Source of the DNA: Trichoderma breve
Taxonomy: Eukaryota; Ascomycota; Sordariomycetes; Hypocreales; Hypocreaceae
DNA: 64,000 nt
Assembly: GCF_028502605.1 (NCBI RefSeq)
Contig: NC_079237.1
Location: 186,001-250,000, forward strand
Direction: 5' to 3'
The translations under genes and the position numbers were made by a program. How positions within the stretch are numbered: position 1 is the stretch's first letter; the number at the start of each line of letters is the position of its first letter. A model generated the notes under the pieces. The model had not been told where the DNA came from, ran no database searches, and worked only from the letters and a program-made list of their open reading frames with translations. Of the stretch, positions 3,001-61,069 are shown piece after piece.

Positions 3001-3249
3001 AATTTAAGAGTCACTGGATAAACATACGAGCTTGACAAACAACAATGTAGATCTCTTAACACAACGATGCGCCTTCCATAACTGCCATGCAGGCAATGGA
3101 AGTAGAAGCAAGAATAATGATGATGGTAAGCAAGCTAGTACAATATCTTCAAATTGTATCGTAAAGTCGAAACCGCGACAGGCAGCATTCACTCGTGGAC
3201 CGAAAGAGGCGTCGGCGCCGCTTGGACAGGTCGCTGTTATTAGGTCCAT
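1..3249 (-). CDS. ABCC-type (MRP-like) ABC transporter, 5' part, runs off the left edge
   Basis: This is a full-length-type ABC exporter of subfamily C, probably for drugs or conjugates. Only the N-terminal half is in the window. The hand-spliced exons are 3249-3028, 2935-2398, 2314-2094, 2034-1755, 1681-1448, 1374-644, 579-417 and 347 to before 1. All introns have GT..AG ends (donors GTATGT, GTAAGC, GTAAGT) and the frame stays open across the joins. The start has the typical fungal ABCC opening (CPSGADASFGP) followed by TMD0 hydrophobic segments. Further on come the first transmembrane domain, Walker A (GPVGSGKST), the signature LSGGQKQRI and Walker B (VVILDDVFSG) of NBD1, then an acidic linker and the start of TMD2. 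No break is visible. The gene lies alone, so its substrate cannot be inferred from context. Confidence 0.88.
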
Positions 3250-3904
3250 ATCTCGACTGATTCAGCAAAAGTGTTGAAAGGGTCGACCCCAGATCAATTA
3301 CATGTCTATCTATTTGACGTTGCAAATGAAGGACAGTCATTATAAAGCGAAGAACAATGCGGAACAGAGCCTGAATTAAGGCTTCTGACAGCACTTCGGT
3401 AGTATTTAATTTCGGAGTCCGAAATTCTATCTGAACCTGACATCTAATTGCATATTCACCTACATACCATTTTATATACATGAACTTCAGATACAAAAGC
3501 TATACAAAGATAAAAGGCGCAGAATAGATTCCGAATAAAGGCTTCTGATAACACTGTGGTGGCGCCTGATTTCGGAGTCCGAAATTGTGCTTCGGCCCAC
3601 CCGGTGCTACTATTCTAGCTGGAGGGACAACCACGATCACTGCATGGGATTTCGAACACGCTAGACAAGTATTTAAGGAGAAACTCGACGGACTGAGATC
3701 AGGACAGACAGAGAAATGTGTTGAAACGTAAGAAAAAGGAGGGGATACTGACCAGTACTTAGAGTCGACTATCCAGCACCCGGCGACTGTGCGAAGTTTT
3801 AAGTCTTGGAACAGAATGTAAAGGGCGGCCTCTTATTGTTTTACCAAGTACTTCTTTTATTAGTACTAAACCCAGGTAGAACTCGTAAATACTCGCTAGT
3901 TTAG
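3250..3904. repeat. Upstream region of the ABC gene with a 52-bp direct repeat ending in a CGG-N3-CCG palindrome
   Basis: No gene is seen here. Two 52-nt units (3373-3424 and 3533-3584, offset 160) share a start resembling GAATAAAGGCTTCTGATA. Both end in the same 15-base odd palindrome TTTCGGAGTCCGAAA (3410-3424 and 3570-3584). The same palindrome recurs at 11310-11324, with a variant at 7605-7619. It is a CGG-N3-CCG arrangement, the type of site Zn2Cys6 regulators bind. It could be a regulatory site in front of the transporter, or part of a small repeat that has been copied around the region. Confidence 0.6.
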
Positions 3905-37678: not shown

Positions 37679-40600
37679 CTACCGCTTTGAAACAACTCTT
37701 CGCCCCTCGTCATCAGCTACTACCAATTCCTGAGAGGTAATAAACCACTCAAACAGTCCAGCGCGTTTCGCCATACCAACCCAGTGCAACGCCGGGACGG
37801 TTGGCAGCTTCAGCACAGCCTCATTCTCAGGTCTCCTAAACAACTCCTCCGCATGCGCCGAAGTGACGTCAGTTCGAAGGGTCGCTGTGCCAGGGTAGCT
37901 GATAAAGCGTAGCGCCTTCTCTTCCGACTTCTCGTGATGACCTGCGGTGACGGCGGCAGCTACAGCGGCAGCCACGTCGTTGACCGGCGCAACGTGAAAT
38001 GTGCCGCCGAGTTTGGCAAAATCGGGTCGTACACCGAGACGCAGCGAGTTGACAAGATAGGCGCGAACCAGAGCGTCTTCGCCCGGCGTCAGCTGGTCGA
38101 CCGGTGCATCACCAGCGGAGGGAGCCGGTGTGGGCCGATGCGCCGTGACCCGCAGACCGGCCCGGCGCGCCGCATCGGCGAGGTACCGCTCGGCCACCCA
38201 CTTGGACGCGACGTAGCCGTGGGCAGGGTCCGGACGTGGTAGGCCACTACTGTCGCCGTCAGCCTCATAATCCGCCAGGGCACCTGAGCTCAAGACGTGC
38301 AGCGTGGCGCCAGTGCGGAGGGCCAGCTTCGCGAGCGCCTTGGCAGAGTTCACGTTGACGGCTTTGAGAGCACCGTAGCCGTCCCAGAAATTGCGGTCGG
38401 CGGCCATGTGAAGGATGACATCGATCTCTTCCAGCTCTGAGGCGTCATCAACAGGCAAAGACGGCAGCTCGGCTTCCACCACACGTATTTTGCTCGAGAG
38501 GCCGGGGAAGAGGTTTGTCAGGTCCCTACCCTCGGCAGGCCGAGCTAGAACCAAGATCTGTGCGACGCGCTCATCAGCTACTAAATGAGGGACTACGCTC
38601 TTCCCCAGAGATCCCGTTGCGCCGGTGACCAGGACGCGGAGTCCGTGACCGGCGCTGTTTGAATCGCCTGTCCGCTGCACCGTTGCTCCGACATCATCAT
38701 CTAACAAGTCCAACGCAATCTCTTTGTCCCAATCAGGGGCGGACCCTTGGCTCTCCAGCAGTGTCGCCATGCTGCCAAGCTCAGACGCTTTCATGAGTAA
38801 GCCTAGGCGCGGTGCGTCACCAAACACGCGCTTAATGACGGATTGCAGTTTGACCAGCAGCAACGAGTTGCCGCCGACGCGGAAGAAGTCGGACTGCGAC
38901 GACAGCGGCTCGGCCGCCAAAGAAAGCTGCGGGAGCACCTCAGTCCAAAGGTCAGCAAGGCGGCGCTCGGCGGGTGTGAAGTTCTTCTGCTGCTCTTGCT
39001 GTTCAGCGCTGGACGTCTTAATCTCTGGGAGAGGGAGAGCCTGCACGGCCTTGCGGTCGACCTTGCCGTGGGCAGTAAGGGGAACCTCGTCAACAGGTAC
39101 GATGATGGCTGGGACCATGTAGTTCGGGAGGGAGTTGGACAGTTGCGTGCGGAGCTGGTTAATCGTCTTGGTAACTTGCGTCTCGCCCATGCCCTTGTTC
39201 TCGAGCACCACATGCGCAACAAGGAGTCCATCATGGTCGCCCTCGCCAGCACGCAGAGTCACCACGGCGTGGGCAAACGTGCCGGCAGCTTCCCTCATGA
39301 TGATTCCCTCAATCTCTGCCAGCTCAATGCGGAATCCGCGGACCTTGACCTGGGCGTCACCGGCGACGCGGCCCTCGATGGCGATGTAGCCGCGGGTGTC
39401 AAGCCGCCCATAATCGCCAGTAAAGTACATGCGGCCCCAACCGGTGGCCTTTTTATCCTGGGGTGCGAACGGGTCCGCGTGGAACTGCTTCGCCGTCACG
39501 TCCGGCCTGCCAAGGTATTCATTCTGGCCAACACCGGCGCCGCCGATGACAATCTCTCCCGGCACACCGATCGGCACGGGTCGCGATTCCTCGTCCATAA
39601 TGTAGACGGCGTAGTTGGGCAGGATGCGACCCGGGATGGGAACGGTCAGGTTAGGATCATGTACATCGGCAACGCCCTTCATGGTAGACACGGTCGCCTC
39701 CGTAGGCCCGTATGTGGTATAGAAGCGCAGATTCGGCAGCACACGGCTCAAGCCGCGGAACGAGTCCAGGAGACTCTGGGGCGAGCGTTCGCCGCCAAAC
39801 CAGGCAGAAGTCCAGGCCGTGCAACGGCGCAGACCATCTGGCGCAAAGCGGAACCACATGCTGTACTCGGAAGGCGTTGCTACGGTCATGGTCACGCCGT
39901 GCTCGGCCATCAGACGTGTCAGCTCGGCCGGGTCGCCGCGGGCGTCGGCGGGAGCGACAACAAGGCAGCCGCCCGTAGCGATGGCGGAGAAGATCTGCTT
40001 CAACGAGCCATCAGAGGTCAAGGCAAACTGCTGGAGCACGACGCGGCCAAGGGTGGCAATGTCCCACTCTCGCACGAAGCCCTCAACCATGGTGCGGATG
40101 CTGGCATGCTTGACAGCGATGCCCTTGGGTTCGCCGGTCGACCCGCTGGTGAAGATGATGTAGGCAGTGCGATCCTGACGGGCTACCGTTGCGATTCTCT
40201 CCGAGCTCTCATGAGCCGTGGCGGGGAGATCAGATATGTTGATGACAGCTACCCCGTCTTCAGCTCCAACCCCAATCTCCGGCGTGCGTGCTGCCGTGTC
40301 ACTGTCGGACAGGATGACCGCCGGCCGCGCCGTTTTGACGTAGCCCTTCAGGCGCGGGATGGAGACTTTCAGATCCAATGGCAGATAGACGGCACCGACA
40401 CGAAGGATAGCAATCATGGAAGCAATCCAGTCGGCAGATGGAGTCTGGAACACGCCAACAACGGACTGTTCGTTGCTTTGATCAGGCAGCTTCTCAACAA
40501 GGGCACGCGCAATGCTTTCAACCCGCTCATCCAACGCAGCGTAGGTATATACATGGCCAAAGCCATCTTTAACAGCGACGCTATCGCGGTTCTGGGCGAT

Positions 40601-43600
40601 GACCTGGTCAAGACGGTGGGCGATGGTGACAGGCCATTCGAGTGGCATGTCAGTGCCTATGTATCGAAGAAAGTTAGCCAGATGATCAAATTAGAGACGA
40701 AGAAAAAAAAAATACATATACATACCCTTGCCGAGTGTCAACGCCTTCTTCACATCAGCCTTGTCCCATTTGTCCACCTTTGCTATGTCGCCGCCCTGCT
40801 TCACAAACTCTCTCAAGACATTAACATAGCTTCGCAGGAACAAGTCCGTGGCCTCCTGGCTGTACAGAGCCCCTTGCATATGCAAAGCCAGCAAGGCTCC
40901 CTCGCCGTCATCGACAATCTCTAGTGCAATGTCGTATGGGCCTCTCGCCGCATGCCACTGGTGCTCGCCGACCCTGCATCCAGCCCAGGGCATCTCCGCC
41001 TGCTCTTTGGTAAATAGCTTATAGTCCATCAGCACTTGGAATACAGGTGGGTATGCATTGGAGCGCGGTGCGGCCAGCTCGTCCAGCAACAAATCAAAGG
41101 GTAGGGCCGAGTGTTCCAGCGCGCTGTACACGTTCTTGCGTGTCTCCTCGACGGCCTGCCCGAACGTCTGGCCGCCGGGGCTACGATTGAACACCAGGGG
41201 GAGCACGTTCAAGAAATTCCCGATGCTGCCCATGAAGTTGCTGTCGAGCCGGTTGGCGTCAGCGACACCTATGACAATTTTGTCCGTTGTCTCAGCGGGC
41301 AGCAGCCGGAACAGAAGTGCCTGTAGAATGGTCAAGTAGCCATGAAACGACGTGGCCTTGCTGCTCCGCGTGAGCTGCTTCAACTTGGCGACTGTCTGGG
41401 CGTCGAGACGGATCCGAGCAATGTTGATCTTGTAATCCTGGAGCGGCTGGCGAACTTGGGAGCGAGCAAAGGAGAGTAGCTCGATGGGACGTGCGAGGTC
41501 TACGGCCTGGAGTGTACGGCGGAAGTAATCGATGGCTGGCTGGAGCTTGCCGGTCTTGTACGCGAGGAGTTGCTGCTTGCCAAAGGAACGGGCCTGTGAG
41601 GCATCGGGCAGCGGTGCCAACGGTCGGCCGCGGTTGCTGTAGACTTGGTTGATGTCGAGCATCAGCATGTTCATGCTGTGACCGTCCATCGAGATGTGGT
41701 GTGTTCCCATGAGCAGGTAATGCCGTGTGTCAGAGAGCGAGAGCAGTCGTAGTCGAAGCTGGCCCCAATCGCCGAGATCCCACTTGTGGTCACGCATGGC
41801 GTCGAGCTCCTCGGCCGCCTGGGCCTCTGAATGGATCGTGGCTGTCTCCAGACGCACAAAGGATTTCGACAGGATACCCTGCATGGGCGTCCTGCTGTCG
41901 TCGTCGGACCAGAAGAAACGCGTGCGCAGGGCCTCGTGCCTCTGCGCTACCGACTCGACGGCCTTGGCGAGATCGTCGATGCGGATGCGGCCTGTGAGCT
42001 TGAATTGGTAGGCAATATTGAACGTAGTGGGATCATCAATATAGTGGCTCAGGAACCAGAAGCGCTTCTGCCCAAACGTCATGGGCTCGGTGTGTTCCGG
42101 CAGCTTGATGGAGGCGATGATCTTTTCGCGCCTCGCTTCTTCAAGCTGTCTCTCCAGTGACTGGGCCGTAGGTTTCTTATGGTCGACATCGTCTCCCAGA
42201 GGTGTCTCCAGAGGCGTGTCAAGCGGCGATCGGGGCGTCGAAGTGGCTGGCAGACTACCTGACTCTGAACTATACGAGGTCTCCGTCGATTTCTTGGTGG
42301 GTGGGAAAGACGCTTTAGCTGGAGCTGGAGCAGGAACAGGAACAAGAACAGGAGCAGGAGTAGGGGCAGCAGCGGTAGCAACAGGAGGATTGCCGCCGTC
42401 ACTGCCCACCTTTTCTAAGTCCAGGATGTCGGCGGGGATGCCGCTGACCGCATCATCAAGTATAGACTCGAGAGTCGACCCAGCGCCCAGAATCTTGAGC
42501 ACAGGAAGGTCGATGCTGAACTCCTGAAGGAACCAGGTGCGGACCTCAACCGCCATGATGGAGTCCACTCCCTGTTCCACGAGCGTCACCATCTCGTTGA
42601 CGCTCTCGCCTTGAGGGATCATGAGGATGCGCTTCAACCGCTCGATAAAGGCTTCTCTGATGATGCTCTTTGCCTCAGTAGCAGACTTGGCAGCAGCAAG
42701 ACGGGCGCGTGGACGCTCCGTCTTGCCAGCACCACCACCACGCCCGCCCCGGATGGCAGCGGCGTCGTGTAGCAGGAGATGGCTGAAGCAGGGGTTGGCG
42801 AGCAATGTGGCGCCCTCGCGGAAGGGCGACACGCCGGTGCACACCTCGGAGCCGCCCTTCTGACCTGGCCGGCCGGCGAGGATGCCCTCGGCGAAGAGCC
42901 CGAGGAAGTCCTGCTCAGAAACGTTGCGGTAGCCTATACGCGTGAAGTGGTCCTTGTCCAGGTGGTTGGCGTGCTCGAAATAGCCCAGGCCCTGGATGGA
43001 GCTGATGGCAATGTCAGAGCCCGCGACGCCTCTCACATTGCGCCTCTGGGCTGCGAGCGCGGCCATGAACTGGTTGGCCATGATGTAGGCCGACTGGCCC
43101 GTGTTACCAACGACGTTGGCCAGCGAGGTGAATAGGATGAAGAAGTCGAGCGGCGTGTCATAAAAGAACTCGTCTAGGACTACGGAGCCTTCAATCTTGG
43201 GCGGGGCTGTCCTCTGTAGGGACTCGAATTTCATGTCGTCAAACAGGGCGTCGTCGATCATCATGGCGCCGTTGGCGACGCCGATGATGGTCGGCAACTC
43301 GGCGCGGATCTCGTCAAGAGCCTGGCGTAGAGACTCGCGGCGTGTCACATCAATCGACATGACCTTGATAGTCGCTCCCTCAGCCGCGCACGAGTCCATA
43401 AACCGCTGGCTCACCTTGGGCCGCCGGCTAGAGAGTACCAGGTTCCGCGCCCCATGGGCTACCATCCAAGCGCACAGCGACTGGCCTAACTCGCCGGTCA
43501 GGCCGACAAGCAAGTAAGTGCCATCAGCGCGGAAGATGGTGCCATGGTCGATGGGCCGTACAAGAGCTCGCACCGATGAGGTCGTGGCCCAGTAGACGAC

Positions 43601-46600
43601 GCTGAGCTTGGTGTGCACGGCAGGTGAGGAGGCGACATCCTGGAGTGCCAATACGGGAACCTGCTCGTTTGTCGATGATGATCCTCCCTTCTTCCAAGCC
43701 TCCTTGAGCGCTCGACCGACCTGCTCCACGTCGTCTGCGTCTGCGTGGGGAGACAGGCCGGGCTGCGTACGCAAAAAGTCAACTGCCTTGGCCTTGGCTG
43801 TGTGCGGCGGGAGAGATCGGACCAAAAGGTCAGAACTGGCAGACGCAGGCTCGGGAGACAGGTCGATCAGGAGAGAGACATTGCGCGGCAAAAGCGTGCG
43901 TACCAGCCGCGTAGGGAGCTTCTCATGGATAAAAATGTACGGTGAGGAACCATTGGCATCTGCGTGATTCTTCGTCGCTGTTGTAAAGACAACTTGCAGG
44001 TCCTGTCTGGCTGCCTCTTTGACCAGGGCGTCCTTGAGGAGCTGGTCGGCCTCATGCACCAGCACAGTTCCGGAGCGTGGTGCGGTGGCGAGGATGGTCT
44101 GCGCAAGGAGATATGCGGCAACACCGCCGAGAGAGGTGCTACTATTAATATTCCCATTCTTGCTAGCCGGTAGAGGCACCGTCCATTCGGTGGGCACACG
44201 TACTCGGGACTCGACAGCAGTGTCGGCCAGCGCGAGGAGCCGTTGACCCGTCTCGGCCTCGGTGCCGACAAACAAGGTGAAATAGCCAACCTCGCGGATC
44301 TTGAGGACTTGTAGCAGCGACTGCTCGACTCGGAGAGTAACGGTATTGCCTGTAGTTGGAGGTGTGGGCAGTACACGCAGCGGCGACACGGTGGCAAGCT
44401 CGAATGACATGCCGTCAGCTGCTGGCTCGAGCACCATGGTCGTCTCGCGCGGATCGAATTCATCATACACAGCGCGGCGGTAGGTGTTGTACCGGTTGTT
44501 GGCCTCTGTGTAAGGGAGCAGTCGCGGGATGAACAATTGGCCGTTGACGTAGTGGTACTCGGGCTCGATGGTCCAGAGGACATTGGTTTCCTCCTCCTTC
44601 TTGAAGCGTGCGCCCAACTCAAGGCGCAGCAGGGCATCGGCGAGAACCTCCGACGTTGGTTCCGTGGCGGCGTCGAAGTCGAGTAACTGCAGAGTGATGG
44701 TCGGATATTCGTGGCGGAGAACACGGGACACTCCGAGGATGATGGACGAGTATGGACGCTCAGCGCGGGCCTCACGTGTGGCCCAGAGGATAGCATGGCC
44801 GTTCCGCCAGAGTGTCTTTAGGCCCTCAATCTTGGGCTCGGTTCGAGTCTCGAGGAGCTGCTCCTCCAGCTCCGTCAGGCAGAGAACAGAGCTCCCAGAG
44901 GCCAGGTCGTACCCGTCGAGTTCTTCAATAGACTCGAGGAACGTGACGGCTGCGTAGCGCGGGCTAATCAGGGCACTTACACCCTTAGCCAGCTTGGCAA
45001 TGGCTTCTGTGCGTCCGCCTACAATGACCAGCTGGCCGGTGCCCTGGGTCGGAGCGGGAGCGGCTAGGGGAGCACGCAGACTATTAACACGGTCATCGAC
45101 GGCCTGGCTGGCAAAGGCGGAGAACCATTGCAGCTTGTTCTTGCTGCCGGTGGAAAAGGGGGTGGTCGTGTCGATGCCACTGAAGCCGTGTCGGCGTGTT
45201 AGTGAATCCCAATGATCCAATGGCAGAGATGGCCCATTGCTGTCGGCCCACCACCCGGGTAGACCGCCGAGAATGGTGCTTAGGCTCAGGGAGTCGTTGC
45301 TGTTGATCTCCAACGCAACTAGATAGCCGCCAGGCCTCAGGAGCTTCCTCACATTGGCAAGCGTCTCGTCCAAGTCGACGGCGGCATGCAGGGCTGCCGA
45401 CGCCAGCACGACATCGAATGAGCCTTCCCCTAGTCCCTGCTCCGCTGGTGGTTGGTTAATATCGTATGTCGTGACCACCAAGCGATCGGCCAAGTCACGG
45501 AAACGGTGCTGGACGCCCTCCAAGGACTCGGCCGAGACGTCAGTGTAAGTGTAAGAGGAGAAGGCATCGCCAAGGGCGGGTAGGATCGAGGTAGTCGAAC
45601 CACCTCCAGTTCCCGCTCCAATCTCGAGGATATGCATGCGCGGGAACCGGTGGGCGATCTGGGCGGCAACGCGGGCGTACCACACGTTTGCGTTCTCCTG
45701 TCCCGGCTGCGCCGTCAGCTGCTGGTAGAACCGGCTCAGCAGCTCGTCCTTGGCCAGGTGCTCCAGGATGCTGCCACCAGCGCGGATCTCATCAGCCAGA
45801 TGGCTGCCCGCCACCTCCAACAGCCGCATGTAGTCGTGCTTGTGGTGCTTGGCGATGAGAGAGTTGACAAAAGCTGCCGTGTCCTTGAGCGCCTCCTGCG
45901 GCACGTAGGGATGATCCCCTCGCGAAACAGTTTCTACCGTGCGAGCAGCAAAGTCCAGCAAGTTCTGGTGATGGCCCAGGGCATCGGCCTTCTCCCACTG
46001 CGTCATAGTCTCGTGGAGGCGGCGTAGATAGAAGAAGCCCACACGCTCGGCTGCCAGCAAGGCTGTGTCGTTTTCAGATGATGACACTCCCTTATCGTCG
46101 CTCTCTTCGCCCTTCATGGCCACATTGGCATCAGGGGCAGCCAGGCGGTAGTCGTAGCGGGTGTAAATGACAGCATCGTCACGAGGTGTTGGCGCCGCAA
46201 ACGGTTGGAGCTCAACCGACTCAAACTGAACAAACGGGTGCGCTTGTGCTGACCCGCCAGAGTACACGTCAATATCAACCATCATATGGCCCTCAGGCGT
46301 CGCACGAGTGGATGTCTGGTACTGTAGGGTGCGGTCACGAGCCTCGCTAGTGTTGCAAAAGTATGGGTTTATGACGATGGAGCGGAAGGTCGTTGGCACG
46401 CAGAGAGTAAAGAGACGGTTGTCGTGCGGGTGGCTGTAGGCGGCGAAGCCCGTCTGGATGGCCGAGTCGAGCCAGCCCGGGTGGACCAAGAGCTTATCCT
46501 CCCAGCCGTTGCCAGACTCGTCCTCGATCTCGCCCATGGCCCAGCCCATCTTGCGGTGGATCGCCCGCACACCTGTGAACGGCGAGCCGTAGGTATAGCC

Positions 46601-49600
46601 CAACTTGGTGAACTGTGAGTACAGGCGTTCGGGCTCCGCCTCCACCAGGTTGATCTCGTCATGGCGAACTGCAGGCAGCGTGTCTGACCCGGCTTCGAAC
46701 AAGGTAGCCGTGATAGTAGCGCTGAAGTTGAGGGTTAACGGTGTGCCACTATCAAACGGCCGGCCAGAGTGGCAGGTAATGCGGCCGGAGAGTTCGTCGT
46801 CGGTGGACCGCACCAAGCTCAGTGTCACCTTGGTTTCCATGCCAGCACTTTCGTCATCAAACGAGAGAGCGCGGCCAATGACGGCGTTTTCAATGGAGAT
46901 GAGCCCCAGCTTGCGGCCAGCAGCAGCAGCGGCGACGGCTTCTACGGCCAAGGAGACAAAGCCCATCGCGGGGAAGACACTTTGGCCCTGTAATGCGTGG
47001 CCCTGGAGCCAGCTGTTCTCGGAGGGACGCAGGACATTGCGCCATGAGACCTCGTCGGCCGTCTCCGTCTCTACCAACCGTCGCCCCAAGAGCGGGTGTG
47101 GCAGCGCATGTAGGTGTCGGTGGGCGCCCGAGAAGCGGGTGAGCGAGTAGAAAGAACGGGAGTGGTCAAAGGGATAGGTCGGGAGGTTGGTCAGGGGCTG
47201 CTTGGGCAACGACGCAGCACCAGAAATCAGCTTCTCAAACTCGTCAAAGTTCACCGACGAGGCACCCAGGTGCGTCCAAATGAAACCGACAGCCAATGCC
47301 AGAGTTTCTACGTCGTCCTTTTTCCGGGCTAGCAGTCCCGTATAGGGAATTTTGTGCCCGGTTGCATGCTCTATCGTATCGAGGGCCGGACCCTTGAGCG
47401 CGGGATGGGGACCGTACTCAATGGCCAAGTCCATCGGCCCGGCTTCAGTGACTGCCTGCGATACGGCCGGCTCGAACAAGACGGCGTTGGCCATATTTTC
47501 AACCCAGTACTGGGGAGACTGGACGTCCTCTTTAGTCATGACACGACCGCCCTCGACGACACTGGAGAACCACTTTGTGCCGTTGCCCTCCTCCACAGCG
47601 TAGCCAGCCCTTGCGAGGCCAGCGAGATAAGGCTCCGCACACGGCTTCATGTGGGCAGAGTGGTATGCCGTGTCGACTTGTAACCGGCGCGCAAACTTGC
47701 CTTCGTCCTTGAAGATGGCGACAGCCTCGTCGATGGCATCTTCGTCACCTGATAGGGTGATGCTGGTCAGGGAGTTGCGTGCGGCGACCTGGATCCCTCC
47801 AAGAAGTTCGCAGAGCTCTTGAGCATCTTCAAACGAAGTACCGGCAGCCATCATAGCACCAGGGCCTCCAGCGCGGGCCAGCCTGGCATAGAGGCCACGA
47901 TAGTGAGCAACGCGGATCGCAGTGGCCGCCGACAGGAAGCCGGCGGCATACGCAGCGCCGATCTCGCCGGATGAGTGACCTACTACAGCACGCAACTGGA
48001 TGCCCGCGGCCCTGAGTAGGTCCACGAGTACGATCTGTACGGCTGTGCATATCGGCTGAGATATGGTTGCTTCGGACATCCGAGAGGACTTGGGGTTGGC
48101 AAGGAGTTGCCCGCTCAGCGTCCAGTCGGGTCGGTCGCCATCGGGGAGCGTGGCCAGGGCTCGCTGAAGCTCGGCAATGCGCTGGGCAGCAAACGGCGAT
48201 TCCTCTATGAGCCTTGCTCCCATTCGCGCCCACTGGGCTCCTTGGCCAGTGAACACGCCGAGAATAGAGGGCTTGGATACGTCGAAATAACGAGTAGTCA
48301 GTTCGCTACCGCCGGCATCGGCGTCGGCGAGCAGCCCATTAATCCTCTTGACGGCCTCGTTAATGTCAGCAGCAAAGATGGGCTTGCGGAAAGGGAGCGT
48401 CGACCGGCGTGTCTGTAGTGTGTAAGCCAAGTCGCGCATGTTAGTGTCCGGATTCCCCTGGAGGTAGGTCCGTAGGTCATCGAGAGTGGCGCGGATGGTA
48501 GACGAAGAAGCAGCCGAAATGGTGAGTGGCGTAAATGCTGGCACAGCAGCAGCAGCGGCCTTGTTGTTCGGTGTTTGAGGCTCATAGTACTCGAGAATGG
48601 CATGTGCATTGGTGCCACCGAACCCTGCCACGGCATAACATAAGCCGGTCAGTTCCATAACAACTCTCAACTCGCCTTTAGCTTTTATCAATCTTGGACT
48701 CACCGAAACTGTTGACACTAACTCGGCGCGGCTGGCCGGGAAGCGTACTCGGCCAGGGCGTGGCGGAGGTAGGAATCTTGAGGTTATCGTAGAACGGGGC
48801 GACTTTGTCACTTAGCCTCTTGAAATGAAGATTGGGGGGGATGATGCCATGCTGCATGGCCATGACAGAGCCGATCACACTGGCAAGGCCGGCGGCACCC
48901 TCGGTGTGTCTGTGCGAGCCCAAGGGCCAAAGTGTCAGTACATGGTGAGACGAACAGTCTTGGAGGCAAACAGTCACTTGGGACGTACCCGACAACGGTC
49001 TTGATAGAGCCCACATATAGCGTATCAGTCGGCTTGCCATGCCCGAACAAGGATCGCGCGATGGCTTCCGATTCCTGCGGGTCACCGGCTTGCGTACCAG
49101 TGCCGTGCGCGTGGAAGAACTGGGGGCGATCTTTCGGATCGTTGATGTCAAGCCCGGCACGGGCATAGGTATCCCGGATGAGCTGTGCCTGAGCGATGTT
49201 GCTGGGCATCGTCATACCTGCCGTCTTACCGTCCTGGTTTACTGTGGTGATCGAGGTGTATTTAGTACCGCGATCAAGTACATTGACAATAAATGCATTA
49301 AAGAAAAAGAAAGAAACATGATGACAGAGGAGAAGAGAAACTTACCAGCTGTCCCGCGAATCACGCAGTCAATGTGGTCGCCGTCTCTCAGTGCCGCACT
49401 AAGCGGCTTCATCACAACGGCCGCAATACCCTCACCGCGAGCATAGCCGTCAGCTGCAGCATCCCACATCTTGCTGGTGCCCGTTGGTGACAGCATGCGA
49501 AGGCTGCTCTCTTTGATAAACATGCCTATGGTGGACAAAGTCCAGCCGTGTCAGCATCAACCAGTTCCGCCTCTCGAGAATAGCATTGTGCGTAGCAATG

Positions 49601-50317
49601 CTGCCAGAAACTCACCAGGAGCCACGATCAGGTTGGCGCCGGCCGCAATGGCGATCGGGCATTCGCCATTTCGCAGGGCTGTCACACCCTGGTGAACTGC
49701 CACCAACGAGGACGAGCAGGCCGTGTCAATCGTCATGCTAGGTCCGTGCCAGTCGAAGAAGTAGGAGACCCGATTTGAGATGATGGCACGGCTGTCACCC
49801 GTGGCAGCATATGTCGGGGCCAGGTCCCAGTCCCGATTAACGATCTGAGCCCAGTCGTCACACATCATGCCAACATACACGGCTGTGTTAGATCCCCGAA
49901 GACCTTCAATGGTTTGGCCACCGGCGCACCTAGAGATGGGGGGCCAAATGGGTCAGCTAGCACAAAGAAACACTAAAAAGACAAAGCAACGTACAGAGAG
50001 TCGTAAACAGTCTCCATGACTAGGCGCTGCTGTGGGTCGATAGCCTCGGCCTCTGCTGGTTGGATGTTGAAGAAGGTGTTGTCAAACCGGGTCACGTCTT
50101 CTTCGATGAAGTACGCGTTTGGCGCGTTCAAGGCGCCGTGTTGGGAGCCATTGGTGTGGAAGAATCCGGTTGCATCGAAACGGTCAGCAGGAACACGCTT
50201 GGAGAGGTCGCGTGGCGACTGGATCAAGTCCCATAGCTTCGAGGGTGAGTCTGAGCCGCCTGGGAAGCGGCATGCCATGCCAATGATGGCGATAGGCTCC
50301 TGTTCTGACACTGCCAT
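37679..50317 (-). CDS. Hybrid PKS-NRPS, 4050 aa: KS-AT-DH-cMT-psiER-KR-ACP-C-A-T-R
   Basis: Seven exons (50317-49995, 49929-49616, 49525-49346, 49241-48989, 48909-48704, 48624-40726, 40656-37679) keep one frame of 4051 codons. KS has Cys179 (DTACSSSL), His318 (HGTGT) and His358 (VGHTEGAAG). AT has Ser643 (GHSSGE). DH has His968 and Asp1145. cMT has LEIGAGTGG at 1425. An ER-like stretch (about 1850-2050) lacks a nucleotide-binding motif, so ER is supplied in trans. KR has Ser2259/Tyr2272 and ACP has Ser2447. A Pro/Ala linker (about 2510-2530) leads to C (HHISMDG, 2734), A ([11 protein letters not shown], 3227), T (GGNS, Ser3656) and a reductase-like terminal domain (TGATGSLG, 3736). The enzyme builds a reduced polyketide, joins it to one amino acid and releases it as a tetramic acid or aldehyde. 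By hand alignment the A pocket reads D-G-K-V-A-F-T-V-S. Its Lys (3278) suggests an acidic side chain. Confidence 0.93.
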
Positions 50318-51404
50318 TTTGGGTGTGTAGGGTGGACGGTGCCTCAGTTGCGTACTATCTACGACAGGATGAGAGGGATGAAGCACCAGGAGAAGTGGTG
50401 AGAGGTCGAGGCTGAACCAGAGTCAAGTGAAAAGCCTTTGAGTGTTGAAGCCTTGTTGTGCTTAAGTGTTGAAGAAACGTGCCTCGACACTGGGCTGCAA
50501 GGATCACGGAAGCACTAACATTCGATGCTAGCTTTGACAAGCTGTCTGTCCAATCTTGGATTGGTTGGAGAGTTAAAGTTATGATTGCAAGAGCTGGGGA
50601 TGTTGATATATTGGCAACTCCAGCACGACCACTTAAAGTTAGTGATTAGATTCTGCCTGACATATTGAATCGATTGGCCTGTGGGTCATCTTCTTCCATC
50701 GGCTGTAAGACGAGACGTTGGCAGCGATCTCGGTGCTTCCCTCGTGAGCAAAATGGGCTGAGTGGAAAGGCCACGACCTGATTTCGGATACAGCTGAGAT
50801 TAACGATGATAGATCAGACGCCTACTTTTCTCGATATTTTCCGTCTTACACATGGCGGAGTGGCCTTGTGTGCCTGAACTGAACACTGGCCCTTGGCTGC
50901 TATTCGTTGGCTCGGAAAATCCTAATACCAACGCCAACCCGATTAACACCGAGTTTAAAATACCATAGTCGGGAAGGCCTGGACAGCCCATATACCGGTT
51001 CACTTCTCTGCCTTGCCTCTGAATTCTTCTCGGTGTGGCTAGAGCAGAATCGATGCAGCAGGCGAAGGAAGCCATCAGCCGGAGTGTTTCGGAGCTTTTC
51101 GGCCAACGCGGTAAGCTTGCGTTAACAACGGCATTCTCTTGAGAACAGCACGAAGAATACCTCAGTATGCATTCAATCATTTTCGTTATATGATGTAGTA
51201 AGATTTCTATGCTTGCTAGCGTTCGGTAATATTGATTAGACAGACGCAGGGTGTCGCTGAACCCATTCCCAGCAGGATGCTTCGTACTCACTAGTAGTTT
51301 ATATACCGATTTTTTAATGAATACTCGACGGAAGAAGCAACTATAGAATTTTCAACGGTTTCGACGGTGTGTTTGGACACTCAGCTGGACCATTTACAAG
51401 CAAA
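50318..51404. promoter_or_regulatory. Shared divergent promoter of PKS-NRPS and trans-ER
   Basis: The 1.09 kb between the two divergent start codons holds no gene. The arrangement predicts co-regulation of the synthase and its enoyl reductase. I did not identify a clear TATA box or a repeated regulator site here. Confidence 0.6.
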
Positions 51405-52565
51405 ATGGCGGCCACATCTACGACGCAGACGGCCTTGGTCGGTGGTCCCAAAGGCGACATCATCCTTTCCAACTCGGCTCCGCTCCCACAGGGACCGCTC
51501 CAAGACCATGAGCTGGCCGTGGCCGTCAAGGCCATCTCAATCAACCCAGTCGACACGAAAATGACGGGTCCCTACCACACCGAAGGTGCCATTCTGGGAT
51601 GCGACTTTGCCGGGCTGGTAACGGCCGTGGGGCCGATTGCCGCGGAATGGGGCTTCCGGGAGGGAGACCGGGTCGCCGGCACCGTCATCGGGCTCAACTC
51701 ATTGAGGCCTAGCGTCGGGGCCTTTGCAGAGAACACAGTGTGCTCGGCGTGGGGAGCTCTTAAGATCCCCGCCGACTGGACCTTTGCGCAGGCGGCGGGC
51801 GGCATGGGAGGACTCGCGTGGATCACGACGTCGTGGGCGCTGTTCCACGCCATGGGCTTGCCGGCCGGGCCTCAGCTGGAGCCTCTCAACGGCCGCCTCC
51901 CGCCGCCTCAGCTGGAGCCCAAGATCAACATTGTCACAGCTCACAGCTCTGGTGATGACACCTCGAAGCCGGTGACGACGGTGCTGGTCAGCGGCGGGGC
52001 CAGTTATACAGGCACAGCGGCCATCCAGTTGCTCAAGCTGGCCGGATTCACCGTCATCGCGACGTGCTCTGCACGCAGCTTCGAGTTGGTGCGCTCGTTC
52101 GGGGCCGATGCCACCTTTGATTATGCCTCGCCAACAGCCGCCGAGGAGATACGCGCCTACACAGGCAACTTGCTGCGCCTGGCCATCGACTGCGTCACCA
52201 CCCCCGAGTCGTCGCGCCTCTGCTATGCTGCCATGAGCCGCCTTGGTGGCCGCTATGTGGCGCTCGATCCCTACAGCGACGCCGTGGCAGCGACACGCGC
52301 CGTTGTTCGTCCTAGCTGGGTTTTTGGCCTCGAACCCCTAGGCGACGAGATCGCCTGGCCAGAGCCGCATACCAGGAAGCCAAACCGCATCGCCCAGGAC
52401 TTTCTCGAGGTTTGGAGTCGCACAATGCAGGGCCTCGTGGATCGTAAGCTCATCCGTTTCCACCCACAGCTGGTGCGCGATGACGGATTGGCTGGTGCAT
52501 TGGAGGGTTTGGATGATATTCGGACTGGGAGAGTCTCAGGCAAGAAGCTGCTCTACAACTTGTGA
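51405..52565 (+). CDS. Trans-acting enoyl reductase partner of the PKS-NRPS
   Basis: Single exon, 386 residues from the ATG at 51405. A 12-codon in-frame extension upstream has no ATG. It is a medium-chain (zinc-independent) dehydrogenase of the LovC/TenC type. The GroES-like N-terminal part has ISINPVDTKMTGPYHTEGAI and CDFAGLVTAVG. The NADPH domain has VLVSGGASYTGTAAIQLLKLAG (Gly-rich loop). The C-terminal part ends GLDDIRTGRVSGKKLLYNL, as usual for PKS partner reductases. It would reduce enoyl intermediates on the PKS, whose own ER region is degenerate. It is divergently transcribed from the synthase. Confidence 0.93.
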   Translation: MAATSTTQTALVGGPKGDIILSNSAPLPQGPLQDHELAVAVKAISINPVDTKMTGPYHTEGAILGCDFAGLVTAVGPIAAEWGFREGDRVAGTVIGLNSLRPSVGAFAENTVCSAWGALKIPADWTFAQAAGGMGGLAWITTSWALFHAMGLPAGPQLEPLNGRLPPPQLEPKINIVTAHSSGDDTSKPVTTVLVSGGASYTGTAAIQLLKLAGFTVIATCSARSFELVRSFGADATFDYASPTAAEEIRAYTGNLLRLAIDCVTTPESSRLCYAAMSRLGGRYVALDPYSDAVAATRAVVRPSWVFGLEPLGDEIAWPEPHTRKPNRIAQDFLEVWSRTMQGLVDRKLIRFHPQLVRDDGLAGALEGLDDIRTGRVSGKKLLYNL

Positions 52566-53136: not shown

Positions 53137-54082
53137 TTATCTCTCTTTTTCGACGTCGGGCAGTGCAGCAATACATCTTGTAGCGCCGCTGGCAATGAGG
53201 CTCGAGTCTATTGCGCAAAGCATGTATCTGACTTGTAGCGTGTTGATGGCCCAATTCTGGATTTCGTAATTGTCATATAACCCAGCCAATCCCATTGTCT
53301 TACCATGTCGCCTACAAGCCTTACTGACCGATTCCAAAGCAGAGCGAAAAGCAGGCGTCTGGAAGCCTCCTGGAACACCTAATTCGATAGAGAGGTCGTT
53401 AGATCCGACCAGGAGCACGTCGACGCCCTCGACTGCCGCGATCTCGTCGACATTCTCAACGGCATCTTTCGTCTCTATCATCACGATGACTGACGAAGCG
53501 GATGTGTTGCTTTCCTCAATGACTCGGTCTTGCGGCATCGGTCTGAGCGAAAATACCGGCAGCTGGCCGGTCATCGATCGGCAACCCGCCGGTGGGTACT
53601 TGGAAATAGAAACGGCAGCTTTCGCGTCCTCTGGACATGGCGGTATTAGAGCTCCGAAGCCATGGTGCGGGGGATCTGGGGATACTTACGAGATGAGTGT
53701 ATATGTGGGAATATCACGCCCATCGCACCGCCATCCAGGACTCTCTGGACGAAGCCATTGCCACACTGGTGTGGGACTCGGACAAAAGGGGTGATGCCTG
53801 CGAGCAGCCCAGCAACAGACAACTGGCTTACATCGTCAATGGACAGCGTCGAGTGCTCCAAATCGATGAAAAGCGAATCGAACCCGGCATTCTTTGCTAG
53901 CTGAACGACTTGTGGGTTCGTATTAAACTTGATGCCAAAGGCCTAGGAGAACAGGTTAGAATTGATGGATGAAGAGCTGCTGTGAGAGTTCCTGTGCCTC
54001 ATTTGGCTGGGCGTTCAAGGCATACCTTGCAAAGCTGCCCGGCAGCAACCTTGGTGGCCAAGGTATTGACGCAAGAAGCCAT
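53137..54082 (-). CDS. HpcH/HpaI-type aldolase (paralogue 1)
   Basis: Exons 54082-54026, 53942-53690 and 53630-53137 encode 267 residues. The first exon is only 19 codons (MASC...AAGQLCK), then a phase-0 intron. Family residues are visible: the catalytic His49 in DLEHS, Arg74 in PFVRVP, and the metal ligands Glu156 in MIETKD and Asp182 in GSNDLS. Members bind a divalent metal and add the enolate of pyruvate to an aldehyde or 2-keto acid. In tetramic-acid clusters such as that of Sch210972, an enzyme of this family is thought to make the 4-hydroxy-4-methyl-glutamate skeleton from two pyruvates. Here pyruvate plus another 2-keto acid is possible. All key residues are kept. Confidence 0.88.
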
Positions 54083-54468
54083 TGTAAGCACCGGCAAGAC
54101 TACTATTTCGACTTACAGACACTCATCGCAGTCAACAGAAGAATAAACCAACTCGAAGTCTTTTCAATGGCTTCTTTTCCAATACTGCCGCTGCTGACTG
54201 CCGTTTTTCCGTGCTGGCGCCGGGGCCCATGTTAGAAACTGTAATCGCAGTTTATCGGTGATACTCGCAACTTGTCGCTCTCCGATAGTTATCCACCGTT
54301 TCCCACGTTTCGGGCCTCGATTTTCCTATATAAACCGTTTCCTTTGTTCCTTTGATGAAGGACATTGTATGCCCGTTTTATTTTCCCCCTTGAGAGAAGC
54401 TGTTACCTGACCCTAACAACTTTCAGCTTTGTGACACTCTCAATTAACGCTATTCCTCACACCTTGTC
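54083..54468 (+). promoter_or_regulatory. Promoter between aldolase 1 and the AHAS relic, with TATA box
   Basis: It separates the divergent aldolase (-) and AHAS relic (+). A TATATAAA element at 54327-54334 is followed by a T/C-rich leader up to the relic's ATG. The promoter of the broken gene therefore still looks intact. Confidence 0.5.
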
Positions 54469-55058
54469 ATGATGCTCCGCTCCGCCAAGACCAGCCTCGC
54501 CGTGAGGAGGACTAGCTCGCAATGCCACTCATGTCTCCCAAGCTCATCGGCCGCCTTAGCCGCGACTTCAGCTCTCAAGACGACACAGAGAGCATATTTA
54601 AATATCACGGCCCAGGGCAAATCTGCAGTAACTGAGTCGCCCGCACAGTGAGTTATAGAGGATCGAGTAGTACACACCCCTGCCTGCTAACGGTGTTCCC
54701 ACCAAATCCTAGCCGGCCATTCAATGTAAGCTCCGAAGACAAAGTCCAGCCATCTGCAAACACTCGCCCCAACGAAACGAACGAATCGTACGTTGACCAC
54801 CACCACAGCCGCCGTCATATATGGCAAGACTAACGGTGCCAGTATAGACTCATCGGGAAGACTGGGGGTGAGAGCTCCAACAATAGCATGCCAAAGAACA
54901 TTAATAGGAGTTTGGGTGTAAGCGAAAGCGTTGAGGGTCAGGTCGCCAACACCTTCAGGCGCCTTTCACCACATGTTAGGGCCAGATCTATTAGGGATCG
55001 GGAGGCATGGCTGGCTCGAGTTAACTCACAGAGAAAGCAGTGGCCTTTTGCGGACTAA
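54469..55058 (+). pseudogene. ilv2: Acetohydroxyacid synthase catalytic subunit (ILV2-like), internally deleted relic
   Basis: Exon 1 (54469-54647) encodes a mitochondrial-targeting-like N-terminus (MMLRSAKTSLAVRRTSS, Arg/Ser-rich). It has a GTGAGT donor, a GCTAACG branch site and a CCTAG acceptor (54712). Exon 2 continues RPFNVSSEDKVQP and NTRPNETNESYV, which is the segment just before the GGEIFHEMM start of the catalytic core in fungal AHAS. The core is absent and a TAA follows within 15 codons. About 110 bases on, in the same frame, MPKNINRS, a VEG and RDREAWLARVNSQRKQWPFA appear. These match the AHAS region between its second and third domains (PKNIN...W...YP in yeast Ilv2). A stop at 55056 follows, and the ThDP-binding domain is missing. 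The copy cannot be catalytic. A functional copy here would have been a self-resistance or precursor-supply gene. Confidence 0.7.
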
Positions 55059-56253: not shown

Positions 56254-57744
56254 TCACTTACAGCCTGTGAACGAAAGCCGACCAGTAGGAAGAAGGTAAA
56301 CATGGAACATGTCTTTAAGGGTTGCCACTTGCTCTTGAGATAATCCTGTCATGGAGAACATGCCAATCTTTTCGTAGTTGCCAGTTAGCCTTGCATAAAT
56401 CGATACTTGAAGACCCATGGATGCTTACATCGGTCAAGAGATGCCGCCAGTTACCAGGTGTGTCTCTCATGGTTAACTCGTCGTGCAGTCGTTTTCGCAT
56501 GTCCCTCAACCGACCGCTCATGGTATTCAGGTCTTGCTGCCATTGCTTCCTCAGTTCTGGGTTTTGAACGATGGTAGCGACGACCTTGGCCCCGAAGCCA
56601 GGCGTGGAAGTAATCTCGGCGCGTGAGATCTGTTTTAATGTTGCCTCCACTTTGGCTGCGGTGTCGTGGTTGCGTGTCACAACGTGCAGAGCACCGATTC
56701 GCTCTCCATAGAGACCAAAGTTCTTGGAGAACGATTGGGCCACCGCAAACTCAATGGCGCCGTTCGAGCGGGTGGCAAAGTGACGCAGCACCCAACCGTC
56801 ATTGTCGATGTCTCCCGTTGCAAAGCCTTGACTGTCAAATGCAGGACAAGTTAGTTATCGAGCTGGCTCCCATGAGATCGCTCGTCTCATCAAATGTGGT
56901 GTGACAGACGAACTAAGCTGAATCAAGAATAGGGAACAAGCCCTTTTCCTCGCATACATTTGCGATGGCCTCCCACTGTTCCCTTGAAGGGTCCAAACCG
57001 GTTGGGTTGTGCGCGCACGCCTGGAGGACTATAACATCCCCTCTTGATGCTTGCTCCTTCATCGTTGAGATCATGCCTTCAATATCTAGCGTGGATGTTT
57101 TGTAGTCATAATAAGGGTATAAACGCTGTTCTATGGCGGGGTTTGTGTGTCTCCAGATCTTCGGGTGGTTCTCCCAGGTAGGGTTGGACAGCCATACGGT
57201 TTTGGGTTGAGCGACGTAAGTCAGGAAACGTGCAATCAGGTAGTTGGCGCCAGTGCCTGCGATCGTCTGCATCGAGGTAATACTCCGGCTACCCAACGTA
57301 TCCCCAAAGGTGATCTGCCGCGCAACGGAGACCAGATCTGGGTATCCCATCTGAGGTGAGATATCATGGTTGAGATGCGGGTCTGCCTGGAGGATTTCTC
57401 TCGCCTGAGGGAGGTCAGTGTCGTGTGACCTAGCCCATCGAACTCACAAGGCGAGATAAAGAGAAGGATAGTCTGGATTATTGGGTAATTGCAAAGGAGT
57501 AGAGGAATTCGCACGCAGGAAATCTTTCCAAGCAATCTTGGGCTTGAAGATCTGGACAGTTCTGTGATCAAGGGGGATTAATTACCTTTTTTACGGAAGG
57601 TAGAACCCATGTTTTTGCATTGTCATCGCGGTAAATACCAGGGCTTAGGTTTACTTTCTTCTTCTCAGTATCGGCTTTAAATGCTTCGATTAAGACAAAC
57701 GTGTTATCGGGCACAGCAGCTGGAATCTGTTCGAGTAATGCCAT
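56254..57744 (-). CDS. Class I aminotransferase (aspartate aminotransferase-like)
   Basis: Exons 57744-57586, 57404-56914, 56831-56429 and 56367-56254 encode 388 residues. The first intron (181 nt) joins WVLPSVKK to AREILQADPHLNHD, the normal family run. The second uses a weak GTTCGT donor but restores DSAYQGFATGD, and the third has a CTAAC branch. PLP-site residues: HNPTG (185-189), Asp214, Tyr217, Lys253 in SFSKN (Schiff base) and Arg261 in GERIG. Between the aldolase genes it most likely aminates the 4-hydroxy-2-keto acid aldol product to the amino acid loaded by the NRPS module. General aspartate transamination is the alternative. The N-terminus lacks a mitochondrial leader, so it should be cytosolic. 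Confidence 0.88.
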
Positions 57745-58496
57745 AATCAAAGCAGAGAGATATGCTGAAAGCCCACAAGAAGAGTAAACAAAGTGATGGA
57801 TGATGCTGTCAGAATATGGGATAGATTGCACTACTCTAAGCCTAGATGGACGTAAGATCCTTACTTATGCGGAATACATACAGAGCCGCGCTAGGTCGCA
57901 GGGTGTGCCCTGACCTAGGCATGACCCTCCATGCCTGTACTCTATTTTCATCAGTGGGAGCTCGATATCGGGCAAAAAGTGATAATGGATGTGCATTGCA
58001 AGATTGTGAGTAGGTGAGGATTAACTCGGCATTTCGGCATGGCCATGGCCGGACTATTTCGGTAGCGGCGCAGGTATTACTTATCACCGTGCATATTCCG
58101 ATCTTATCTGGCAAGCTGTTTTAGGAAATTGACGACTGTAGTAGACTCGTATCAACAACACAAGGTTGGCACATAGTAGGAAAATGGTTATGAACCAATA
58201 CACCGCCGGGCTTCTGAGTCGCACCGAGCAAAGACCATGAATTTTCTCTGTCAGCAGCTACAACGGGCGTGTTCCATGAATGAATCTCCGATCAAATATT
58301 GCCGGAACCGGTACCGTTTGGGTTGCATGCGAATATCTCTCCACCGAAAAGCCCCGAGCTACGACTGTAAAGAGGGTTGAGAGTTGAGAGATATTAATTA
58401 CAGAAGCAGTACTCATCGTCTCCACAAGATCACATCATTTCCTCTCCGCTATCCAAGAAGAAGTCAAACACAAAGAAAACACAAACATCAGAAAAA
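57745..58496. promoter_or_regulatory. Divergent promoter of aminotransferase and methyltransferase
   Basis: 750 bases between the two divergent start codons. The methyltransferase leader is C/A-rich with an AAAAAATGG start context. No specific site was identified. Confidence 0.45.
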
Positions 58497-59618
58497 ATGG
58501 GATCAAACACAGAAGATGCTCGTGCCCGCGTTCAACGGGCGTACCACGACATCGGCGACCCAGTCTTCTCTGCCGCTGAGTTCACACTCATCAAGGTCTT
58601 CATCGACTACAAGGGCTTCGATGCCATCCCGGATGAGGGTGACATCTCTGTGGCCGACTTGGCCGCCAAAATCGGTGGCACGCACGAAGTGATCGACCGT
58701 ATGACCACCTTCTTCATCTCCGGCAAGGTCCTCGCATCTACAGGCCCTGGCCGCGTCGCTCACACGGAAAGGTCTCGTCTTTACAAGTACGACGAGCCTA
58801 CCGCCTGGCTCTACATTCACATGTTCAACAATGTGTTCCGCTCCTTCGCCCAGATGCCAAACTTCTTCCAGAAGAATGGTTTAGCTTCGCCTCAGAGTGC
58901 CAGTGTCACACCTCTTGGCCTTAGCCACGGTTTCGAAAACCGGCCAGCTTACGAGATCCTTGTTGAAAACAAAGTCGTGCACAAGGGATTCAATGAAGCG
59001 CTGAAGGCGCTCGGAGTCATGTACTCACTGAAGGGCATCTACGATTTCGGCTGGCTGCGGGAGCCTCTTGCTGCTGGGCCGTCACGAGCGGCTATCGTGG
59101 ATATCGGTGGGAGCCACGGTCTCGCCCTGCGCGATGCAATCCGCAACAACAACTTTCTCCCCGCCGAGCGCTGCGTTCTCTTCGATCTCCCACAAGTTAT
59201 TGAGAACACCAAGAAAAATGTCGAGAAGGAACAGGACGAGGACCTGCAGAAGATCCAGATGATTAGCGGAAGCATGTTCGAGCCGTATCCCGAAAGCGTC
59301 AAGGGTGCCCTTATCTACCAGTTCCGCCGGATCCTCAACGATTTCCCCGATGAGGACGTCCTGCGGGCCTTCCATAATGTGCGAAAGGCAGTGGCTCCCG
59401 ATTCACGCATTCTTATTATTGAGGAGATGCTCAATCCAAAGCGTATCCCCATGAATGTCGGGTTGGACATCTGTCTTATGTGCGCTGCCGGCAAGAGGCG
59501 AAACGCCGCCATGTTCAGCGAATTGGCTGCGCAAGCTGGTTTCAAGCTCAATGCAGAATTCCAGCAAATTGCGGGCGAATTTGATGACTTTGGTGTGCTT
59601 GAGTTTGTGTTGGCCTGA
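58497..59618 (+). CDS. SAM-dependent methyltransferase, plant-type O-methyltransferase fold, catalytic His missing
   Basis: Single exon, 373 residues. The N-terminal dimerisation domain is followed by motif I VDIGGSHGLALRD (201-213), FDLPQV (229-234) and the RRILNDFPDED block (277-287). In O-methyltransferases of this family the last block usually reads LHDWxDE, and the His is the general base that deprotonates the hydroxyl. Here Asn281 replaces it. That fits a different acceptor such as an amide nitrogen. N-methylation is known in harzianic acid, equisetin and related tetramates. The gene sits between the aminotransferase and aldolase 2, so a role in the same pathway is likely. The acceptor is inference. 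Confidence 0.85.
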   Translation: MGSNTEDARARVQRAYHDIGDPVFSAAEFTLIKVFIDYKGFDAIPDEGDISVADLAAKIGGTHEVIDRMTTFFISGKVLASTGPGRVAHTERSRLYKYDEPTAWLYIHMFNNVFRSFAQMPNFFQKNGLASPQSASVTPLGLSHGFENRPAYEILVENKVVHKGFNEALKALGVMYSLKGIYDFGWLREPLAAGPSRAAIVDIGGSHGLALRDAIRNNNFLPAERCVLFDLPQVIENTKKNVEKEQDEDLQKIQMISGSMFEPYPESVKGALIYQFRRILNDFPDEDVLRAFHNVRKAVAPDSRILIIEEMLNPKRIPMNVGLDICLMCAAGKRRNAAMFSELAAQAGFKLNAEFQQIAGEFDDFGVLEFVLA

Positions 59619-60172: not shown

Positions 60173-61069
60173 CTAGTTATGCACAACGGTTCGATCAATG
60201 GAGGATATCCTCTCTGCACATTCCATGGCGCCGACCGAGATAAGGTTCGAGTCCACGTGAGCCAGTATCAGACGAACCCCCAAAGTGTTAATGACCCAGT
60301 CCTGGAAATCGAGGTCCTTATAGTTACCAGCCAGTCCGAAGACCTTGTTGTGGCGCTTGCATGCCATGCTGACGGCCTTGAGCGCAGCCTTGAACTTGGG
60401 TGCATCAACTTGGCCGGGGATACCCATATCACTCGACAGGTCGATGCAGCCGACTATGAGAACGTCGACGCCATCAACCGCCGCAATGGCGTCGACGTTT
60501 ATAATGCTCTCTTCGGCCTCGATCATGACGCCTACAGCCGACGCCATTGAGTTGACCTCGTCGGCCATCATCTGCATCGGCATGGTGCGGAGACCCACGG
60601 CAGCCTGCTGGAGCCACAGCGACCGCTTCCCATACGGTGGGAACTTGCACATCTTGACGGCTTCCTTAGCCTCCGCAGCCGAGACTATGTGTGGGAAGAC
60701 AACCATCATGGCCCCAGAGTCCAGGACCTGCTGGACGTAACCCATGCCGCACTGGTACGGCACGCGAACAATGGGCGTCATGCCGGCCATCATGGCCGCG
60801 CTCGCGAGCATGCTGGCTTCAGTAATGGAGTAGGTCGAGTGCTCCATCTCAACCCACACAACGTCGAAGCCGGCGTTTCTAACAAACTGGACGACGAGGG
60901 GGTTCGTCACCAGTCTGAGGACCATAGCCTGTGGTGACATTTAGCCACTTCTCTATCACCTGATCCAGGCCAATCAATGAGATGACGTTGGGATGGTCTC
61001 CAACCTGCCTACCTTACATAACTGTCCGGCGCTAGCCTTGGTGTATATAACATTCTCGCAGAGAACCAT
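60173..61069 (-). CDS. HpcH/HpaI-type aldolase (paralogue 2)
   Basis: Exons 61069-61013 and 60928-60173 encode 270 residues. As in paralogue 1, the first exon is 19 codons ending AGQLCK and the intron falls at the same codon. The landmark residues have identical numbers: His49 (EMEHS), Arg74 (PIVRVP), Glu156 (MIEAEE) and Asp182 (GCIDLS). Paralogue 1 has a second intron that this copy lacks. Overall the two are clearly diverged, so the duplication is not recent. The substrates may differ, for example in the keto-acid acceptor, or the two may form a heteromer. Its place next to the methyltransferase marks it as part of the cluster. Confidence 0.88.

Follow-up and report, generated by a model that had tools for sequence, protein, structure and literature searches.

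Harzianic acid is an antifungal compound whose target enzyme is acetohydroxyacid synthase (AHAS, or acetolactate synthase, ALS), which is also a herbicide target. A truncated AHAS/ALS gene was described in the harzianic acid (hac) cluster of T. afroharzianum by Xie et al. (2021), as cited in PMC12616698 and PMC9854587, the available parts of which give conflicting accounts of whether resistance comes from the truncated gene or from a copy outside the cluster. Homologues of ALS are also found in other PKS-NRPS tetramate clusters. One is ptsB of the pterrespiramide cluster, reported in the available part of PMC12616698 to confer resistance in yeast; another, in the sdt cluster (HB-35018), is presented in the available part of PMC12947280 as a putative resistance gene. 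As to biosynthesis, the accessible portion of PMC7421883 extends to harzianic acid the logic of Sch210972 formation, in which an aldolase and a transaminase supply a substituted glutamate to the PKS-NRPS.

The window analysed here, a stretch of 64,000 nucleotides (C6:186001-250000) from the T. breve genome (38.5 Mb, nine contigs), contains a short AHAS-like gene within a PKS-NRPS tetramate cluster, as in the two systems above, but devoid of the catalytic regions, which sets it apart from both ptsB and the sdt copy. Judging from the description of the truncated T. afroharzianum gene, a like kind of gene in a like kind of cluster, the two are very likely orthologues. A truncated AHAS in such a cluster is therefore known, but its conservation or open frame was not found in print in the openly CC-licensed literature; that is, no description was found there of the open, spliceable frame and of the truncation common to eight proteins that are reported below. 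Nothing further about the gene came from PMC12194781, PMC10735191, PMC9188596, PMC11579085 or PMC13301806.

Gene content around the short gene

The neighbours of the short gene in the window are the following:

37682..50422, minus strand: PKS-NRPS hybrid with KS-AT-DH-MT-KR-ACP-C-A-T-R domains, found piecewise
51321..52562, plus strand: medium-chain dehydrogenase (ADH_N and ADH_zinc_N), likely the trans enoyl reductase
53140..54083, minus strand: HpcH/HpaI aldolase, divergent neighbour of the short gene, with domain matches in two frames and an approximate start
56318..57443, minus strand: class I/II aminotransferase, with domain matches in two frames and a 5' end beyond these coordinates
58398..59615, plus strand: methyltransferase (Methyltransf_2 domain)
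60176..60940, minus strand: second frame of the HpcH/HpaI aldolase family, by domain match, 6 kb from the first aldolase

The PKS-NRPS, trans enoyl reductase, aldolase, aminotransferase and methyltransferase thus occur together, which is the gene set of the hac cluster according to a list that we take as its definition. On this gene content, rather than by direct match to published hac genes, the locus is predicted to be a harzianic acid cluster, in agreement with the placement proposed in an earlier note on this DNA, and the target copy inside it is truncated. The same note had considered loss of toxicity as a reason for a dead resistance copy. This is disfavoured by the PKS-NRPS, aldolase and aminotransferase frames, where the expected domains are present, and by T. 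pleuroticola, a species carrying a relative of the short gene and reported in the available part of PMC7248884 to make harzianic acid, although in another strain. An interruption of the PKS-NRPS by the stop at 40691 was ruled out, the stop being inside a predicted GT-AG intron; the T. breve protein, to which the PKS-NRPS of the window is 100% identical over the part searched, has 3940 residues. Over the part searched, PKS-NRPS proteins of Fusarium and Cylindrodendrum are 75-86% identical to that of the window. Just outside the window lies a major-facilitator transporter (C6:252103-253875; L025:3604-5376), close to a fungal transcription-factor frame running over the window end; it is a possible exporter of the cluster product.

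Structure and origin of the short gene

The short gene spans exactly 54469-55058, the coordinates given in the earlier note, and, once spliced, forms one open frame of 154 codons. Its exon/intron model was built from the intron positions of the genome's own ILV2, both introns being sequence predictions:

54329..54334, plus strand: TATAAA box, found by pattern count upstream of the gene, with promoter function inferred
54469..54647, plus strand: exon 1, with the start codon and an ILV2-like leader
54648..54712, plus strand: intron 1 (predicted), 65 nt with GT-AG ends and, like its ILV2 counterpart, in phase 2
54713..54787, plus strand: exon 2, N-terminal arm (RPFNVSS...NES), matching the ILV2 arm
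54788..54847, plus strand: intron 2 (predicted), 60 nt, reading GTACGT...TAG and, like its ILV2 counterpart, in phase 2
54848..55058, plus strand: exon 3, with LIGKTGGE, the deletion junction, the kept AHAS segment and the stop
54873..54887, plus strand: junction SSNNS, 15 bases in place of 1031 genomic bases in ILV2 (from the GGE to the MPKNIN codons, intron 3 included)
54888..55055, plus strand: kept AHAS segment, equivalent of ILV2 residues 407-461

No stops, frameshifts or lost splice sites were found in the T. breve copy. The leader, free of acidic residues over its first 55 codons, is predicted from sequence to be a mitochondrial presequence. The TATAAA at 54329, already pointed out as an intact promoter element, sits in the divergent region of roughly 386 bp that separates the gene from the aldolase. 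In the earlier note the AHAS pieces were read as lying in one genomic frame, which had to be corrected: intron 1 joins the leader to the arm and intron 2 the arm to the third piece, and the "YV" of the NESYV segment listed there is in fact the 5' splice site where intron 2 begins, the same being true of ILV2.

The short gene has in common with ILV2 of T. breve the leader, the arm, the phases of introns 1 and 2 and residues 407-461, while differing from it in length (154 against 689 residues) and in sequence, with 36% identity in the common segment. The ILV2 exons lie at 3123-3271, 3508-3609, 3734-3801, 3891-5582 and 5645-5703 of its locus (L009). The AHAS origin of the pieces, claimed previously, was borne out above all by the third one, which is identical to ILV2 407-461 at 20/55 positions (E 1e-12 against a set of just eight thiamine-enzyme loci from the genome, this being the one clear match) with an alignment score of 117, the maximum in 2000 shuffles being 50. 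When this piece was compared with all PDB chains (E up to 10), the matches came down to seven distinct sequences, all of them acetolactate/acetohydroxyacid synthases, with E values from 2.9e-7 to 0.17. The arm together with LIGKTGGE scored above all 2000 shuffles; the score of the arm alone was reached by 23/2000 and that of the leader alone by 141/2000.

Missing from the short gene are the counterparts of ILV2 residues 93-406 (314 internal residues) and 462-689 (228 C-terminal residues), so that the proposed deletion of the catalytic core stands. At the junction, a gapless alignment pairs GG[ESSNNS]M of the short gene with GG[IIHFEI]M of ILV2, and a deletion between the ILV2 GG-coding hexamers GGAGGC and GGCGGC (L009 3750 and 4766) would be allowed by the sequence. 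The ILV2 HEQGAGHMAEGYARASG stretch, which we take to hold the catalytic Glu of the N-terminal thiamine-enzyme domain, falls within the missing residues 93-406 and is absent from the short gene. The same is true of GDASFNMT...LNN, presumably the C-terminal thiamine-diphosphate motif, which is past ILV2 residue 461, the end point of the short gene. No Pfam domain was found in the window product at E up to 1, and a weak DUF1589 match (0.065) appeared in one of nine aligned family members. Because both of these stretches belong to the lost parts, and Pfam gives no match, catalysis by the short-gene product is, on the evidence of its sequence, excluded. Precursor supply by catalysis, a role suggested earlier, falls with it, no thiamine-enzyme domain being left.

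Relatives, constraint and decay

A search of 5.8 billion proteins, with 58 candidates scored, yielded eight relatives of the window product, all from Trichoderma (seven species, 14 member sequences), with lengths of 132-157 aa and E values from 1.3e-81 to 2.2e-38. They belong to T. camerunense (90% identity to the window product), T. harzianum (two, 90 and 88%), T. afarasin (86%), T. asperellum (80%), T. lentiforme (66%), T. pleuroticola (59%) and T. evansii (58%), and the source name of one is acetolactate synthase catalytic subunit. The junction is recognisable, with a few substitutions, in 8/8 relatives, which is best explained by one ancestral deletion, either predating their divergence or carried with the cluster; a shared junction would also be expected from transfer of the cluster between species, which would carry it along. 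An assembly error, by which a gene really full-length would only appear truncated, had been named as a finding that would overturn the earlier interpretation. No evidence supporting it was found. The junction recurs in annotated proteins from seven further species, and the DNA of the locus matches nowhere else in the genome, all of which makes an artificial deletion scarcely credible. Nor is there support for an unusual, freshly dead case, since the truncated form is annotated in those seven species and a truncated AHAS/ALS of the hac cluster had already been published. The description as a dead relic was half right: the product is catalytically dead, but "relic" suits less well a truncation shared by eight Trichoderma proteins, five of which match over the full length.

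These 5/8 relatives align over their full length with zero frameshifts. In the remaining three (T. lentiforme, T. pleuroticola and T. evansii; P0128-P0130) exon 1 is annotated in another frame, and two of them read on through intron 1; T. breve has a TGA at 54633 in that frame. The T. evansii relative also stops six residues early. Such off-frame first exons and the early end are possible signs of decay. At the SITDRQAW and INAQ residues, T. pleuroticola agrees with T. asperellum and T. evansii and not with the remaining sequences of the Harzianum type, which hints at transfer of the cluster or at an old polymorphism between species.

The tentatively preferred reading, held at somewhat short of an even chance, is that this non-catalytic gene of 154 codons still yields a short, predicted mitochondrial protein, kept since the common ancestor of several Trichoderma species; we infer that it would be transcribed, enter mitochondria and be under weak selection. 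The serious competitor, itself put below even probability but nearly as high, is a slowly decaying pseudogene, in which the core of a resistance copy was deleted in an ancestor and the remainder drifts, staying open through shortness, chance and annotation bias. Tests of selection, which combined the relatives' proteins with the T. breve codons and made no use of synonymous rates, bear on both. The five full-length relatives show 71 distinct changes, of which 66 need a single base substitution; the mean BLOSUM62 of these is +0.20, against a neutral expectation of -0.34 to -0.48 (p 5e-5, 6e-4 and 2.4e-3 at transition bias 1, 3 and 5). Changes so much more conservative than neutral speak against decay, as do the absence of frameshifts in these relatives and the intact intron signals of the T. 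breve copy. The same measure gave +0.28 and +0.32 for the PKS-NRPS over its first 2706 codons, whereas a small off-frame control (19 changes) gave -0.32 against -0.55 to -0.65 expected (p 0.19-0.28). Had the 71 missense changes been unconstrained, 3.5-3.8 stops should have accompanied them, and none was seen (P 0.02-0.03), an absence that is biased because annotators choose open frames. Of 28 changes within the leader's first 55 codons, none is to an acidic residue, a weak result in favour of a kept protein (P 0.19). In the window product and four Harzianum-type relatives, the kept segment varies at 7/56 sites, compared with 36/98 upstream (p 0.0014), but the contrast is lost once T. asperellum is added (p 0.17).

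Other results are closer to what decay would give. In T. asperellum alone the BLOSUM62 mean is -0.03 (p 0.06-0.15), so that neutrality is not rejected. When the regions are taken separately, the leader and the junction show a weak conservative signal (p 0.03-0.12), and invariance is not concentrated at the sites identical to ILV2 (p 0.27). The kept segment differs at 12/56 residues in T. pleuroticola and at 13/50 in T. evansii, rates near that of intron 1 read as codons (4/21 in each), and because the segment changed as fast as the intron in these two species, selection must be regarded as weak or uncertain. Over the leader of the three off-frame relatives, a manual tally found 8 first- and 8 third-codon-position distinct sites changed, an equality that favours decay; per relative, the first- and third-position changes are 3 and 7, 3 and 6, and 5 and 4. 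The short gene evolves at about three times the pace of the PKS-NRPS (in T. afarasin, 22/153 against 120/2703). Decay is also favoured by the odd gene models of 3/8 relatives, with the early end in one, and by the poor fold that AlphaFold predicts for five relatives (mean pLDDT 49; three helices are predicted, and block means >50 occur only for those at 113-149). The promoter, moreover, would survive in a decaying gene because the aldolase uses the same divergent upstream region. Taken together, the tests suggest weak constraint and do not amount to proof, the kind of substitution pointing to constraint and the rate not. A non-catalytic protein under weak selection is slightly favoured over a remnant that is dying slowly.

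In the mechanism predicted for such a protein, a full-length resistance copy would have been truncated once, and its leader, arm and helical segment might still reach the mitochondrion. There the fragment could bind the AHAS complex, through ILV2 or its regulatory subunit, and tune AHAS activity or its inhibition by harzianic acid, with most of the self-resistance presumably coming from elsewhere, by efflux or from another acetolactate synthase. In a stronger version, which is improbable, the fragment would dock on the mitochondrial AHAS complex and make the producer's own enzyme tolerate harzianic acid, thus acting as a 154-residue shield and not as a resistant enzyme. The case matters for resistance-gene-guided mining, in which a target copy inside a cluster is read as a resistance enzyme. 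An enzyme is just what the present copy cannot encode, yet several species share it. If producers protect themselves otherwise, the mining rule would point to the right target for the wrong reason; alternatively, a non-catalytic fragment would be what protects the target.

Where self-resistance may lie

With a short product that cannot catalyse, the earlier advice to seek resistance elsewhere holds good. ILV2 (C4:4103622-4106202) is the genome's only close AHAS match and, of the four thiamine-enzyme frames tested, the only one above the biosynthetic-type cut-off. It was nevertheless ruled out as the sole acetolactate synthase of the genome, since a frame on C2, at 26% identity, is of the AlsS type. 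This 568-codon stop-to-stop frame (C2:302672-304375; L010:2173-3876) exceeds the curated AlsS cut-offs (703.6 bits against 510, and 661.7 against 551.1) and has catabolic acetolactate synthases among its best solved-structure matches. It is 48-50% identical to Firmicute frames from Paenibacillus, Terrilactibacillus and Sporolactobacillus, the best of at least 80 loci in a prokaryote-only collection, from which direction of transfer and fungal spread are not readable, and it was likely acquired from bacteria.

Catabolic AlsS enzymes are not known to be sensitive to AHAS herbicides. Resistance may accordingly have been handed to the C2 enzyme, which would provide acetolactate when ILV2 is inhibited and thereby make the cluster copy dispensable; such a bypass is compatible with either reading of the short gene and, although rather unlikely, draws on the AlsS cut-offs passed, the catabolic best matches and the likeness to Firmicutes. 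It would also agree with the resistant ALS outside the cluster mentioned in the available part of PMC12616698, but that enzyme may be ILV2 or another copy. Another point against it is location, because no leader was seen on the C2 frame and its product is therefore likely cytosolic. Less probable still, and concerning only the site of resistance, is that the housekeeping ILV2 is itself the resistant enzyme. In its favour, it is the only close AHAS match and, of the four frames, alone above the biosynthetic-type cut-off; against this, beyond residue 52 it has four substitutions relative to the solved chain 7egv/7ehe, which we take to be the Trichoderma AHAS solved with harzianic acid.
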